NCBI GenBank assembly: GCA_011375175.1
Contig: DRME01000080.1
Span: 1 to 50,514 of the forward strand
DNA length: 50,514 nt
Direction of reading: 5' to 3'
DNA from: Deltaproteobacteria bacterium
GTDB lineage: Bacteria; Desulfobacterota; GWC2-55-46; DRME01
Shown here: one piece after another, positions 1,056 to 50,514 of the stretch
Position numbering within the stretch: the stretch's first letter is position 1
Layout: every line of letters begins with the position of its first letter
The notes under the pieces: model-generated
The model's input: only the letters and a program-made list of their open reading frames with translations
Database searches by the model: none
What the model was told of the DNA's origin: nothing
Translations under genes and position numbers: made by a program

Positions 1056-1290
1056 GGAAACCCGATTTAACTATCCTGGGGGAAACTTTCTGTAGAAGGG
1101 CCACAGGCCCACGTTTCCCCCAGACCCCCTTCCAAGACTTTCAATACGAGTTGGTTTCCCCCTGTTTTGCTTGGCAAAACAGGGGGAAACCAACTCGCGT
1201 TAATTTGCTCTTCGAGCCGCGTTGGCTCTCATGATCGCTGATGAAACGAGGTTCTTCAGCCCAAGTCAAAAGTCTTTGGAGGGGGTATAT
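1056..1290. repeat. Family A modular palindromic element (composite copy)
   Basis: Starts with a degenerate terminal repeat at 1056, beside the helicase start codon, followed by the GGGGGAAACTTTCT hairpin sequence. Two central modules follow in series. The first is a perfect palindrome at 1147-1197 (24-bp arms, loop TTG) matching copies at 24373-24423 and 50419-50469. The second, at about 1206-1262, is the reverse complement of the 37733-37795 module. The inner-repeat remnant AAAAGTCTTTGGAGGG ends the recognisable part. The right terminal repeat is not seen, so this is a rearranged copy. Confidence 0.8.
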
Positions 1291-5570: not shown

Positions 5571-5657
5571 GGAAGCTCTGATTAATGACCCTGGGGGAAA
5601 CGGGGGTTGTGACCCTTTTACAAAAAGGTTCCCTCAGTGCAATAAATCAGAGTTTCC
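5571..5657. repeat. Family A element, short form (87 bp)
   Basis: Bounded by GGAAGCTCTGATTAATG at 5571 and AATAAATCAGAGTTTCC ending at 5657, an inverted pair. The inside joins the left half of one hairpin (CCTGGGGGAAAC) to the right half of the other (ACAAAAAGGTTCCCTCAG). Central module and inner repeat are missing. It fills the gap between the convergent YbhB-like and deoC genes. Confidence 0.85.
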
Positions 5658-11529: not shown

Positions 11530-12065
11530 AATCAATCGGGGGGAAACTTTCTGAAGAAGGGGCACAGGCCCATGTTTCCGCGCCGCCCCATCGTATGTCA
11601 TTCGTGTGTGCGGCTGCACCTGGGGTTCGGGCCGCGCCAGGCGGGATTTTTTACGCCTTTGCGGCCCGAACCTCCCGGCCCAGCCGCCTGACGCAGCCTG
11701 TGTTGGCAGTCTTTGGTGGGAACTTTCTGAAGAAAGGCCAGGCCCGTGTTTCCGCGCCGCCCCATCGTATGTCATTCGTGTGTGCGGCTGCACCGGGTGG
11801 TTCGGGCCGCGCCAGGCGGGGTTTTTTACGCCTTTGCGGCCCGAACCTCCCGGCCCAGCCGCCTGACGCAGCCTGTGTTGGCAGTCTTTGGTGGGAACTT
11901 TCTGAAGAAGGGGCACAGGCCCATGTTTCCGCGCCGTCCCATCGTATGTCATTCGTGTGTGCGGCTGCACCTGGGGTTCGGGCCGCGCCAGGCGGGATTT
12001 TTTACGCCTTTGCGGCCCGAACCTCCCGGCACAGCCGTCCGACGCAGCCGGCGCGGGCAGTCCTG
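11530..12065. repeat. Three tandem units of about 175 bp, each with a family B stem-loop
   Basis: The same block recurs with TCGTATGTCATTCGTGTGTG at 11591, 11765 and 11942 (periods 174 and 177 bp). Each unit has a GGGAAACTTTCTGAAGAA or GGGAACTTTCTGAAGAA segment related to family A, then CGTATGT, then a stem-loop (11610-11687, 11784-11862, 11961-12037) with the conserved core and GGTTCGGGCC arms. Units differ by a few substitutions. Open frames across the array are translations of the repeat and I do not annotate them. Together with 12107-12346, this fills the 905-bp gap upstream of tetR. Confidence 0.9.
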
Positions 12066-12106: not shown

Positions 12107-12346
12107 AGAAAGTAAGGGGGGGCGAGGTATGGTGATGAAGGCCGCTTAGAGTCCCGGCGGGACGCCGTCGCCCGTGAAGATTCATTGGTTTTTCTTTGCT
12201 TACTTTCTTTTTTCCAAAAAGAAAGTAAGGGGGGTGCGAGGTATGGTGATGAAGGCCGCTTAGAGTCCCGGCGGGACGCCGTCGCCCATGAAGATTCATT
12301 GGTTTTTCTTTGCTTACTTTCTTTTTTCCAAAAAGAAAGTAAGGGG
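12107..12346. repeat. Tandem direct repeat of about 114 bp, 2.1 copies
   Basis: AGAAAGTAAGGGG starts units at 12107, 12220 and 12334 (partial). The two full units are nearly identical and include AGAGTCCCGGCGGGACGCCG, itself a small palindrome. Each unit end has an inverted repeat, CTTACTTTCTTTT / AAAAGAAAGTAAG. On the minus strand the last hairpin lies just after the stop of the 12347-12610 gene and could act as its terminator. Confidence 0.85.
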
Positions 12347-18044: not shown

Positions 18045-18133
18045 GGAAGCTCTGATTAATTACCCTGGGGGAAACCGTGGGCCTGTGACCCTTCTACAGA
18101 AAGATTCCCTCAGTGCAATACATCAGGGTTTCC
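18045..18133. repeat. Family A element, short form (89 bp), between murC and murB
   Basis: GGAAGCTCTGATTAATT at 18045 and its degenerate complement ATACATCAGGGTTTCC ending at 18133. The inside fuses CCTGGGGGAAACCGTGGGCC to CTACAGAAAGATTCCCTCAG, the same left/right fusion as at 5571-5657. It lies within the dcw transcription unit. Confidence 0.85.
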
Positions 18134-24306: not shown

Positions 24307-24499
24307 ATTTCTACCCTGGGGGAAACTTTCTGTAGAAAGTTTCCCCCAGACCCCCTTCAAAGACTTTTAATACGACTTGGTTTCTCCCTGTTTTGCTTGG
24401 CAAAACAGGGAGAAACCAAGTCGCGTTAAAAGTTTTTGGAGGGAGTCTGAGGGAACCTTTTTACAAAAAGGTTCCCTCAGTGCAGTCAATCAGAGTCTT
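24307..24499. repeat. Family A element between murF and mraY
   Basis: Left hairpin GGGGGAAACTTTCT / AGAAAGTTTCCCCC, inner repeat CTTCAAAGACTTTTAA, central palindrome 24373-24423 (24-bp arms, loop TTG), inner repeat TTAAAAGTTTTTGGAGG, right hairpin CTGAGGGAACC / GGTTCCCTCAG, then the right terminal repeat AATCAGAGTCTTC. The left terminal repeat is degenerate. The right end overlaps the 3' end of murF, providing its stop codon and last codons. Relative to the 1147 palindrome, both arms carry matching substitutions that preserve pairing. Confidence 0.88.
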
Positions 24500-25943
24500 C
24501 GGTGACGAGGGTTTTTATTATTTCTTCCATGGCTGCGGCCCTTGATCCCTTTACGAGCACCGTGTCTCCCTCTTTCAGTATGGCCTTCAGGGAGCGTGCG
24601 GCCTCCCTTTTCGACGCAAAGGGGTGGAGCGCGGTCTTGCGTCCCGCCGACGCTGCTCCTTCCATGACCTGGGCGGCGTAGTCGCCGACGGCCACCACCA
24701 CGTCTATGCCGAGGTCCGCCGCCGCGGCGCCCACCTCTCTGTGGGCCGTCTCGGCCTCGTCGCCGAGGTCGAGCATCTCGCCCATGACGGCGACCTTCCT
24801 GCCTTTCGAGGCGGAGAGGGCCCGCAAGGCCTCGACGACGGATTCGGGGTTTGCGTTGTACGTATCGTCCAGTATGGTGAGCCCGCCGCTTCGCACGATG
24901 CGCATCCTCGCTCCCTCTGGGACGAAGCCGTCGAGCCCCGTCTCTATCTCGCCGGCCGTCGCTCCCAGCGCGAGGGCGGCGGCCGCGGCGGCAGCGCCGT
25001 TTGCGGCGTTGCACACCCAGGGCGAGGGGAAACGCACCCGCGCCGCGGTCCCCCTCACGTCGTAGACGACGCTGAGCGAAAAGCCATCGACCTCGACGTC
25101 CCGTACCGTCACGTCGGCCTTCCCCGGACCTGGAGAAGGGCGGAAGGTTATCCTCTCGCCCCTGAGCGCGCCGCGGCCGAGAAGGTCCTTCTCCATGCGC
25201 GCTATCCACGGGTCGTCGATGTTCACCACCCTCACGCCTCCGGTTCCGAGCGAGGCGAAGAGGCTTGTCTTGGCCCTGGCCACACCCTCTACCGAGCCGA
25301 GCCCGCCCACGTGGCCCCGGCCTATGTTGGTTATCACCGCAACGTCGGGCGCGGCTATCTCGGCGAGCCTCTCCATCTCGCCGGGCAGGCTTATGCCGAG
25401 CTCGACGACACAGGCCTCGTGCCGGGGGCTCAGGTCGAGCAGGGTAAGGGGCAGCCCTATGAGGTTGTTCCTGTTGCCCTCGGTCCTGTGGACCCGGCGT
25501 CCCGCCGAGAGGATCACGGCCGTCATGTCCTTGGTCGTCGTCTTGCCGGCCGAGCCGGTGACGGTGATCACCGGCAGCCCGTGAAGCGACCTCACGTAAC
25601 GGGCCGTATCTCCGAGGGCCCGGAGCGTGTCGTCCACCACGAGAAGGGCCGTCCCCGGCGGCAGATCAAGGTGCCGGCTCGCCACCACGCCGATAGCCCC
25701 GCGCTTTACCGCCTCGGCGGCGAAGTCGTGGCCGTCGAAGTTCCCGCCCCTGAGGGCGAAGAAGAGCTCTCCCGGGCTGATGCGCCGCGTGTCGGTCGAA
25801 AAGCCTCTGACCGCCGTCTGCCGGCGTCCGCTCACCGCGGCGTCCATTGCGGCGGCGAGCTCGTCGATCGAGTAGGTCCGGGGCCGCGGGCGGACGGCTC
25901 CGCCGCTTCCCGGTGGCGAAGGCTGGCCGCTTACGGTGGCCAC
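24486..25943 (-). CDS. murF: UDP-N-acetylmuramoyl-tripeptide--D-alanyl-D-alanine ligase MurF
   Basis: Mur ligase (EC 6.3.2.10) attaching D-Ala-D-Ala to complete the pentapeptide precursor. About 485 aa. Motifs are GFSTDTRRISPGELFFALRG near the N-terminus, the P-loop TVTGSAGKTTTKDM, EGNRNNLIGLPLTLL, ELGISLPGEM and DDTYNANPESV. The GTG at 25943 is preferred: GGGGAG lies 9 nt upstream and it follows the murE stop by 4 nt. An ATG at 25976 would overlap murE. The final residues DSD and the TGA come from the terminal repeat of a family A element, so the native 3' end seems to have been replaced or trimmed. Confidence 0.95.
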   Translation of the reverse strand: MATVSGQPSPPGSGGAVRPRPRTYSIDELAAAMDAAVSGRRQTAVRGFSTDTRRISPGELFFALRGGNFDGHDFAAEAVKRGAIGVVASRHLDLPPGTALLVVDDTLRALGDTARYVRSLHGLPVITVTGSAGKTTTKDMTAVILSAGRRVHRTEGNRNNLIGLPLTLLDLSPRHEACVVELGISLPGEMERLAEIAAPDVAVITNIGRGHVGGLGSVEGVARAKTSLFASLGTGGVRVVNIDDPWIARMEKDLLGRGALRGERITFRPSPGPGKADVTVRDVEVDGFSLSVVYDVRGTAARVRFPSPWVCNAANGAAAAAAALALGATAGEIETGLDGFVPEGARMRIVRSGGLTILDDTYNANPESVVEALRALSASKGRKVAVMGEMLDLGDEAETAHREVGAAAADLGIDVVVAVGDYAAQVMEGAASAGRKTALHPFASKREAARSLKAILKEGDTVLVKGSRAAAMEEIIKTLVTEDSD

Positions 25944-32183: not shown

Positions 32184-32202
32184 GGGACGCTCTCCCGTTT
32201 TT

Positions 32203-32276
32203 TCACCGGGGGAACCGTGGGCCTATGGCCCTTCTACAGAAAGTTTCCCCCAGGGCGATTAATCGGAATTTCCTCA
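32203..32276. repeat. Family A element, short form
   Basis: Contains CGGGGGAACCGTGGGCCTAT, CTACAGAAAGTTTCCCCCAG and the right terminal repeat ATTAATCGGAATTTCC. The left terminal repeat is not recognisable. Lies between comEC (stop at 32293) and the DUF4124 gene. Confidence 0.75.
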
Positions 32277-37479: not shown

Positions 37480-37876
37480 GTTCCGGGGGGAACTTCCTTG
37501 ACAAGGGCCAGGGGTCAGTGTTTCCCCCTGCCCCATCGTATGTTATTCGGTTCTTCGGCTGTACCGGGGGTTCGGCCCGCGCCAGGCGGGATTTTTACGC
37601 CTTTGCGGCCCGAATCCCCCGGTACAGCCCCCCCGAGGCAGCCGGCGCGGGCAGCCTGGGGGAAACTTTCTGCAGAAGGGCCATAGGCCCACGGTTCCCC
37701 CCAGACCCCCTTCAAAGACTTTTAACTTGGGCTGAAGAACCTCGTTTCATCAGCGAGCATGAAAGCCAACGCGGCTCGAGGAGCAAATTGAAAGTTTTTG
37801 GAGGGAGTCTGAGGGAACCGTGGGTCCATGACCCTTTTACAAAAAGGTTCCCTCAGTGCAGTTAATCGGAATTTCC
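37480..37876. repeat. Composite of family B and family A elements (fills a 404-bp gap)
   Basis: Begins with a degenerate hairpin (CCGGGGGGAACTTCCTTGAC), then CGTATGT at 37538 and a family B stem-loop at 37557-37629 (arms GGCTGTACCGGGGGTTCG and complement). A long family A copy follows (about 37655-37872) with left hairpin, inner repeats, the non-palindromic central module at 37733-37795, right hairpin and the terminal repeat TTAATCGGAATTTCC. The efp stop codon begins a few nt beyond. No gene. Confidence 0.85.
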
Positions 37877-39903: not shown

Positions 39904-39986
39904 CCCGTTTAATTATCCTGGGGGAAACTTTCTGCAGAAGGGCCATAGGCCCACGCTTCCCCCGGACCCCCTTCAAAGACTTTTAA
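39904..39986. repeat. Family A element, left-half copy
   Basis: TTTAATTATCCTGGGGGAAA, hairpin half with GGGCCATAGGCCC, then CCCCCTTCAAAGACTTTTAA, ending directly against the full copy at 39987. The right half is missing. Confidence 0.75.
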
Positions 39987-40204
39987 GGAAGCTCTGATTA
40001 ATTACCCTGGGGGAAACTTTCTGTAGAAAGTTTCCCCCAGCCCCCCTTCAAAGACTTTTAATTCCCTGCGGATCACCCCGATTTTGCTTGCAAAATCGGG
40101 GTGATCCGCAGGGCGTTAAAAGTTTTTGGAGGGAGTCTGAGGGAAGCGTGGGTCTATGACCCTTTTTCAAAAAGGTTCCCTCAGTGCAATAAGTCAGGGT
40201 TTCC
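39987..40204. repeat. Family A element, full reference copy (218 bp)
   Basis: GGAAGCTCTGATTAATT at 39987 and AATAAGTCAGGGTTTCC ending at 40204 are the terminal inverted repeats. Inside, in order: hairpin GGGGGAAACTTTCT / AGAAAGTTTCCCCC; inner repeat CTTCAAAGACTTTTAA; central palindrome 40064-40113 (23-bp arms, CTTG loop); inner repeat TTAAAAGTTTTTGGAGG; right hairpin with CTGAGGGAAG / GGTTCCCTCAG. The 48064-48281 copy has the same length and central module in the opposite orientation. No coding sequence. Confidence 0.9.
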
Positions 40205-40244: not shown

Positions 40245-40501
40245 GGAAATTGCCGGGGGACCTTTTGCGAGGGGGCCGGGGGCCCGCACGGCCCGGCCTT
40301 CCTTAGCACGTCAGTCCCCTTTGCGGCGTCCCGGCGACTCCGGCCGCAAAGGCGTAACAAGCCCGCCTGGCGCGGCCGGACTCCCCGGGCCGCCGCCGCA
40401 AGGACGCGCCTGCGCGGACACGTCCTCCGGCAGAGGCCCTGGATACCCCGGTGGAGCGCCCGGCGCGAATCTCTCCGGAAGGGCCAGGGGCCGCGGTTCC
40501 C
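40245..40501. repeat. Degenerate repeats including a family B stem-loop
   Basis: A family B element lies at 40323-40396 with core GCAAAGGCGTAACAAGCCCG and arms around GACTCCGGCC / GGCCGGACTC. The flanks carry degenerate family A pieces (GGGGGACCTTTTGCGAGGGG at about 40256 and CCGCGGTTCCCTCAAGG at 40491). With 39904-40204 this accounts for the whole 608-bp gap. Open frames here have no ribosome-binding site or homology that I can recognise. Confidence 0.65.
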
Positions 40502-43530: not shown

Positions 43531-43550
43531 CTGTCGAGGAGGGGAGGTCG

Positions 43551-43623
43551 GGAGTCTGAGGGAACCGTGGGTCTATGACCCTTTTTCAAAAAGGTTCCCT
43601 CAGTGCAATAAATCAGAGTTTCC
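43551..43623. repeat. Family A element, right-half copy
   Basis: GGAGTCTGAGGGAACCGTGG, CAAAAAGGTTCCCTCAG, then AATAAATCAGAGTTTCC. Left hairpin and central module absent. It lies in the 5' leader of the sensor kinase gene. Confidence 0.8.
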
Positions 43624-48063: not shown

Positions 48064-48281
48064 GGAAACTCTGATTAATTACCCTGAGGGAACCTTTTTG
48101 TAAAAGGGTCACAGACCCCCGGTTCCCTCAGACTCCCTCCAAAAACTTTTAACGCCCTGCGGATCACCCCGATTTTGCTTGCAAAATCGGGGTGATCCGC
48201 AGGGAATTAAAAGTCTTTGAAGGGGGTCCGTTGGAAACTTTCTACAGAAAGTCTCCCACGGTGCAATAAATCAGAGCTTCC
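48064..48281. repeat. Family A element, full copy (218 bp)
   Basis: GGAAACTCTGATTAATT at 48064 and AATAAATCAGAGCTTCC ending at 48281. The order of hairpins is reversed relative to 39987-40204, with the same central palindrome at 48155-48204. Located between glk and pgl. Confidence 0.9.
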
Positions 48282-49561: not shown

Positions 49562-50356
49562 ATGGATTGGGGTATGCAGAACCGTTTGAGCCGCGTCATA
49601 AAGCCCGATACGGGCCGTACCGTCATGCTCGCCGTGGACCACGGCTACTTCCTCGGTCCCACGACGGGACTGGAGGAGCCTGCCAGGATCATAAAACCCC
49701 TCCTGCCCTACGCCGACACGCTCATGCCCACCCGCGGCGTGCTGCGCGCCTGCGTGGACCCCGACACCGATATCCCGGTGGTGCTGCGCGTCTCGGGCGG
49801 CACGTCGATCCTCGGCAATCTCGCCGACGAGGCGACGACTGTCTCCATGCGCGACGCCCTGCGCCTCAACGTCGCCGGCGTGGCCCTCTCCATATTCGTG
49901 GGCTCGGAGCTCGAAAAGCAGACGCTCAAGGCCCTGGCCGACCTCGTGGACGAGGGCACCGACTACGGCGTGCCCGTGCTGGCCGTGACGGCCGTGGGCA
50001 AGGATATGGCCCGCGACGCAAGGTACCTGGGACTGGCAAGCCGCATAGCCGCCGAACTCGGGGCCCACTTCGTCAAGACCTACTACTGCGAGGACTTCGA
50101 AAAGGTCGTGCGAAGCTGTCCAGTGCCCATCGTCATAGCGGGCGGAAAGAAGATACCGGAGCGCGACGCCCTGGAGCTTGCCTACAACGCCGTGCGCAGC
50201 GGCGCCGTGGGCGTTGACATGGGCCGCAACATCTTCCAGTCCGACAACCCCGTGCCCATGATCCGGGCCGTGCGCGAAGTGGTGCACAACAACGCCACGC
50301 CGGACCAGGCCTACGACCTCTATAACACCCTGGCAAACGAAAAAAAGAGCGCTTGA
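49562..50356 (+). CDS. LsrF / class I fructose-bisphosphate aldolase (DhnA-type) family protein
   Basis: 264-aa TIM-barrel Schiff-base aldolase. [11 protein letters not shown] (23-33), the lysine K172 in [19 protein letters not shown] (191-198) and [14 protein letters not shown] (217-230) are shared by archaeal-type class I FBP aldolases, the aminotransferase-pathway ADH synthases and LsrF. The length and N-terminus closely resemble LsrF (3-hydroxy-5-phosphonooxypentane-2,4-dione thiolase, autoinducer-2 degradation), but no other lsr genes are present, so a general aldolase role is equally possible. AAGGAGG precedes the ATG. The TGA stop lies in the terminal repeat of a family A element. Confidence 0.85.
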
Positions 50357-50514
50357 TTACCCTGAGGGAACCTTTTTGTAAAAAGGTTCCCTCAGACTCC
50401 CTCCAAAAACTTTTGACGCGAGTTGGTTTCCCCCTGTTTTGCCAGGCAAAACAGGGGGAAACCAACTCGTATCGAAAGTCTTTGAAGGGGGTCTGGGGGA
50501 AACTTTCTACAGAA
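50354..50514. repeat. Family A element, truncated by window end
   Basis: TGATTACCCTGAGGGAACC, the hairpin with TTTTTGTAAAAAGG, inner repeat CTCCAAAAACTTTTGACG, central palindrome 50419-50469 (24-bp arms, loop CAG), inner repeat AAAGTCTTTGAAGGGGG and the beginning of the GGGGGAAACTTTCT hairpin. Confidence 0.88.

Follow-up and report, generated by a model that had tools for sequence, protein, structure and literature searches.

The repeat at 39987-40204 of the window, by which we mean the whole 50,514-nucleotide stretch of DNA analyzed here, is real and is mostly explained as an IS5-type MITE whose cargo consists of paired half-units, each a hairpin with a mirror tail. We put at roughly 80% the probability that it represents a non-autonomous MITE family driven in trans by an IS5-family DDE transposase and carrying an older cargo of triplex type. 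As a kind of element the shell is unremarkable; what is new lies in the cargo and its variable, self-complementary centre. The initial annotation had described four nested levels of inverted symmetry and no named family. Terminal inverted repeats (TIRs), two different hairpins, an inner repeat, and a central palindrome are all present, but they do not form one architecture: an IS5-type shell surrounds an older repeat. The lack of a name holds for this combination and for Rfam but not for the ends, which are of IS5 type.

Copy number and anatomy of the repeat

A blastn search of the window and of the genome it belongs to, with the 218-bp copy as query, gave a match at every site listed in the initial annotation; all of the listed copies are real. 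A 445-kb sample, made up of 20 sampled stretches (395 kb) and the window, contains 112 merged repeat loci that occupy 18.7 kb (4.2% of bases), and the reversed sample contains none. With up to two mismatches allowed, 419 TIR 16-mer ends were counted in the 2.49-Mb genome, compared with 0 in a backwards-read control. The description of a modular, MITE-like, high-copy element with no transposase in the window is therefore borne out. Extrapolation from the sample gives about 600 loci genome-wide and is fair because TIRs are about as dense in the sample (180 per Mb) as in the whole genome (168 per Mb). The earlier figure of hundreds to over a thousand copies is right as to the hundreds, but a thousand is not reached. 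Many contigs of this genome (G000; assembly 98.6% complete) begin about 130-165 bp from a TIR (e.g., C32, C33, C43, C45, C51, C59, C69, C110), which indicates that the assembly breaks inside the repeat and that copies are undercounted. One transposase family would account for about 4% of the genome and probably for much of its contig breakage. A copy had been thought to lie in most intergenic gaps; by our counts, which rest on a crude gene caller, 78 of the 177 gaps of at least 60 bp in the sample hold one (44%; 10 of 25 in the window), and only 6 of the 112 loci lie mostly within a called gene. Insertions in genes would presumably be selected against, leaving the copies between them.

Complete elements fall into a short class of 74 or 88 bp, arranged as TIR-hairpin-TIR, and a long class of 204, 218, or 232 bp, arranged as TIR-hairpin A-tail A-central palindrome-tail B-hairpin B-TIR (Table 1). 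The 14-bp step in length is an optional small hairpin (about GGGCCAYAGGCCC) within either flanking hairpin. The centre is of four types, three of them palindromic and one not, and each half is complementary to the other at 86-88% over arms of 56 nt. The two 218-bp copies in the window share 90% identity and lie in opposite orientation. Terminal repeats had been attributed to all copies; at up to three mismatches they are recognizable at 5571, 18045, 39987, and 48064 and at the right end at 43623, whereas the remaining copies are truncated or have decayed ends. The entries at 39904 and 39987 are two abutting elements.

Table 1. Elements and modules of the repeat in the window
Feature	Position	Strand	Remark
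Complete 218-bp element	39987-40204	+	cargo in A-to-B orientation
Left TIR	39987-40004	+	GGAAGCTCTGATTAATTA
Hairpin A	40007-40040	+	16-bp perfect arms
Mirror tail A	40042-40061	+	CCCCCTTCAAAGACTTTTAA
Central palindrome	40064-40113	.	type I stem, 24-bp arms, loop TT
Mirror tail B	40116-40136	+	TTAAAAGTTTTTGGAGGGAGT
Hairpin B	40137-40184	+	long form with extra 14-bp hairpin
Right TIR	40187-40204	-	diverged
Complete 218-bp element	48064-48281	-	ATAA duplicated on both sides
Short element, TIR-hairpin-TIR	5571-5657	+	TTAG duplicated on both sides
Short element, TIR-hairpin-TIR	18045-18133	+	CTGT on both sides
Cargo copy, type II centre	24312-24500	+	left TIR lost
Left end, hairpin A, tail A, central palindrome	1056-1203	+	other sequence replaces right half
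Partial copy	32198-32273	-	hairpin and one diverged TIR
Cargo copy, non-palindromic 68-nt centre	37655-37876	+	37524-37876 including neighbouring repeat
Older half copy	39905-39986	+	ends at TTAA where the 39987 element abuts
Right end	43550-43623	+	hairpin B and right TIR
Cargo copy, type II centre	50353-50514	-	cut by contig end; 50350-50514 as repeat locus

Other repeats are also present. Members of a second palindromic family lie at 1317-1390, 1436-1507, 11539-12061 (tandem), 37565-37640, and 40325-40400 of the window. Their apical part (about CCGCAAAGGCGTAACAANCCCGCCTGGCGCGG) is conserved and sits atop a long stem, the sequence of which is copy-specific yet complementary. This family is often fused to the MITE, and at L052:3788-4015 it too lies between IS5-type ends. 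Two tandem 114-bp copies at 12116-12343 of the window (98% identity) have no relation to the MITE.

IS5-type ends and target duplications

The element ends, GGAARCTCTGATTAATT, are near-identical to those of the IS5 family. Exact 4-bp duplications flank 12 of the 32 TIR pairs in this genome, where 1.5 would be expected with shuffled flanks; 18 of the 32 match with at most one mismatch, and 20 have no exact duplication. In other genomes, exact 4-bp duplications were found at 48 of 90 TIR pairs (12 expected). The duplicated target has the consensus YTAR, the target rule of the IS5 family. Comparison with repeat-free gaps, as the initial annotation had proposed, yielded one empty site: the joined flanks of a 74-bp element (L049:9380-9453) align with an uninterrupted stretch of the same genome (L054:15318-15437), in which TTAA is present once, which marks TTAA as the duplicated target.

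Many named MAGs of Gamma- and Deltaproteobacteria, as well as Microbulbifer thermotolerans, have this TIR together with YTAR duplications. In other members of the order, the start of an IS5-family transposase gene lies about 71-75 bp inward from such a TIR, frequently where a contig ends. L081 is an IS5 element that has lost internal sequence but retains its two ends. In Nitrospira sp. RSF1, a complete IS5 element of 1178 bp (L303:1432-2609) is flanked by CTAG on either side, and its transposase scores 365 bits against NF033581; a further Nitrospira copy (L306:555-1773) has TTAA on both sides. Both flanks fit the YTAR rule. The ends of these two elements are 1-2 of 17 bases off the MITE ends and surround an IS5 transposase ORF or its remnant, whereas the elements studied here are 74-232 bp long and have no transposase ORF. 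A transposase family with matching ends, which the initial annotation had suggested seeking, is thus found in other genomes.

Searches of this assembly with PF01609 and IS5 proteins gave no IS5 transposase gene, an absence that is not proof because the assembly breaks at repeats; the acting enzyme may be encoded by an unassembled multicopy IS, or may have been lost. With no IS5 gene here and near-identical ends on IS5 elements elsewhere, the outer layer is, on sequence grounds, an IS5-type MITE presumably mobilized in trans, and as such of a known kind. Its assignment to the family rests on the ends and duplications and does not depend on an autonomous partner in this genome, which bears on present activity. 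No sequence common to the interiors of the MITE and of IS5 could be demonstrated. Two other candidates were rejected. L185:2448-3484, considered as a long TIR-bounded IS, has a hydrolase-like ORF between MITE ends and no transposase, and the IS1182-like and IS4-like transposases (G034, G044) have no matching pair of ends.

We propose that an IS5-family DDE transposase would recognize the TIR at both ends and insert the element at YTAR sites, generating the 4-bp duplication. Any sequence between two such ends would be mobile, which would give rise to the modular lengths: 74/88 bp with a single hairpin and 204/218/232 bp with the full cargo. The cargo itself is an older repeat of the order, composed of two inverted half-units of hairpin and mirror tail around the central palindrome.

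Cargo half-units and the central stem

When genomes of the order were searched with the full element, 29 of 48 gave matches, mostly over query positions 21-183; except in a few copies (e.g., in G017), the similarity does not extend into the TIRs. In a one-contig genome of this set (G009), nearly every copy of the cargo has a central stem of its own. Matches to parts of the cargo, for the most part half-units and sometimes alone, were also found in 14 sampled genomes from other orders of the phylum. In family f5 the cargo lies, judged by eye, within a different set of imperfect outer inverted repeats (about GCTGAAAAA). The presence of the cargo without TIRs across relatives marks it as older than the shell; it seems to be a pre-existing repeat that was captured by IS5 ends. 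A shell of this kind around a distinct and older structured repeat implies that capture, in addition to IS decay, can give rise to modular MITEs. A literature search on repeats of this kind in Desulfovibrio found no paper.

Several cargo copies in G009 (L258, L259, L260, L261, L263) have another palindromic module (TGTTAGGTCCGATGGATGC...GCATCCAACGGCTC) in place of hairpin B. Cobalamin riboswitches lie at L234:1646-1836 and L245:198-371, the former directly after a cargo copy.

Each half-unit consists of a hairpin and a tail that mirrors the hairpin's own arm, with a 3-nt linker. What had first been described as an inner inverted repeat corresponds to the mirror tails of the two hairpins. In the purine orientation, tail B and hairpin B include AGGGAGTCTGAGGGA, which is the same when read backwards; the counterpart in relatives is AGAGAGTTTGAGAGA, and for tail A the sequence is CCCCCAGACCCCC. 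Tails vary with their arms from lineage to lineage: for 13 different half-units with tails of about 17 nt, 0 of 20,000 permutations reached the observed match between tail and own arm under a strict mirror rule, and likewise 0 of 20,000 under a G-opposite-C-tolerant rule itself derived from the data; these figures, we stress, are not clean probabilities because the half-units are related and were hand-picked. The half-units have the layout of intrastrand triplexes (PIT/TM) and, judging by this layout, may form them. The tails could instead be conserved only through pairing of tail A with tail B in the long palindrome, with no role as triplex strands, and the complementarity of the two halves agrees with this. 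Such pairing does not, however, predict that a tail mirrors its own hairpin arm, and mirror scores lie far above direct, complement, and reverse-complement scores. Furthermore, T-run length, CC/C, and GAGGG/GAGAG vary jointly in tail and arm, and lone half-units outside the order (L243, L247) retain the mirror. We consider conservation through tail pairing alone rather doubtful and prefer the triplex layout.

In this genome, the type I central stems have 23 both-arm changes, compared with 12 unpaired cells among 648; the corresponding figures for type II are 16 and 16. Private changes in type II stems affect both arms in 9 cases and a single arm in 12; private both-arm changes this close in frequency to single ones are not expected from independent mutation. 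The loops of one stem occur in either orientation with respect to the outer modules (AA/TT, CCAGG/CCTGG), and relatives have 25 different centres, nearly all well paired. The central stem varies between copies while being almost perfectly palindromic, which suggests arm-to-arm copying at the DNA level. Most likely, a single strand would fold back and one arm would template the other, so that the stem could drift with its palindrome kept; the same copying would also flip the loops.

Strong pairing with both-arm changes would also be seen in a structured regulatory RNA or transcription terminator under selection, the central stem of which covaries to preserve pairing, and a T run does follow one lone half-unit elsewhere (L243). 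We regard selection of this kind as improbable. Tandem, divergent, and convergent gaps are occupied alike, and in tandem gaps copies have the same orientation as the flanking genes in 19 cases and the opposite in 14, which is no bias. The loops occur in both orientations, the element has been mobile recently, and Rfam at gathering score gave 0 matches in the window and only cobalamin riboswitches at other loci. (Weak miRNA and Dictyoglomi-1 matches, far under gathering scores, were rejected as generic long hairpins.) Because there is neither a gene-orientation bias nor an RNA family match, we infer arm-to-arm copying on folded single strands in preference to selection on RNA. It is very improbable that the hairpins are REP sequences spread by a RAYT (Y1) transposase on single-stranded DNA, with the IS5-like ends secondary: they are indeed short, intergenic, abundant, and arranged in inverted pairs, and RAYT-like PF01797 genes occur in 23 of the 48 genomes of the order, but a search found no PF01797 in this genome, no cargo half-unit lies in the 2-kb stretches that surround 20 of the order's RAYT genes, and TIRs with 4-bp duplications are DDE-type features.

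More tentatively, and with less confidence than we attach to mobilization of the family by IS5, the cargo may be an unnamed order-wide repeat, with half-units elsewhere in the phylum, in which two strand-switching triplex half-units enclose a stem that is rewritten in one copy after another and stays self-complementary. Fold-back copying still under way at these sites, or a barcode-like role of the stem, would turn the copies into natural recorders of template-switch replication. The variable palindromic stems, with many copies in many relatives, offer a data set for fold-back template switching, and the same stems and half-units offer one for three-strand covariation in a putative DNA triplex.

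Comparison with known systems

Bacterial MITEs, including Correia, ERIC, and Chunjie (Geobacter), have been reviewed (PMC10969869), and MITECca01 of Cardinium reaches 169 copies and 3.5% of the chromosome (PMC9769881). Like these IS-mobilized elements, the repeat is short, has no ORF, shares its TIRs with complete IS, makes a short target duplication, and is mostly intergenic in 100 or more copies. It differs in that its interior is a separate, older repeat found without TIRs in relatives rather than an IS remnant, and in that its lengths step by modules. With IS5-family elements (NF033581 type; Nitrospira L303/L306) it shares ends of the GGAA-N-STCTGATTWATT type and 4-bp YTAR duplications; unlike them, it has no transposase gene, and none was found in the assembly. 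REP/BIME/REPIN elements (PMC3116915, PMC2817692) are likewise intergenic inverted pairs of short hairpins in high copy number, but the present repeat has DDE-type TIRs and 4-bp duplications; this genome has no RAYT gene, and the 20 RAYT genes examined have no cargo next to them.

The closest parallel to the half-unit is found in PIT elements and TM_ECO, in which a hairpin is followed by a mirror-image third strand with a 3-nt linker; these are intergenic, high in copy number, and without strand bias, and no transposon association was found for TM_ECO (Holder et al., 2015, PMC4666352). The cargo has the same half-unit layout and linker and the same intergenic, high-copy, unbiased distribution. 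By inspection, its sequence is different from the TM_ECO consensus CCCTCNCCCN3-6GGGNGAGGGN3GGGNGAGGG. It is further set apart from PIT/TM_ECO by a mirror that runs beyond the purine tract into a pyrimidine part (strand-switching), by the arrangement of half-units as inverted pairs around a variable palindrome, and by IS5-type ends that would mobilize the whole.
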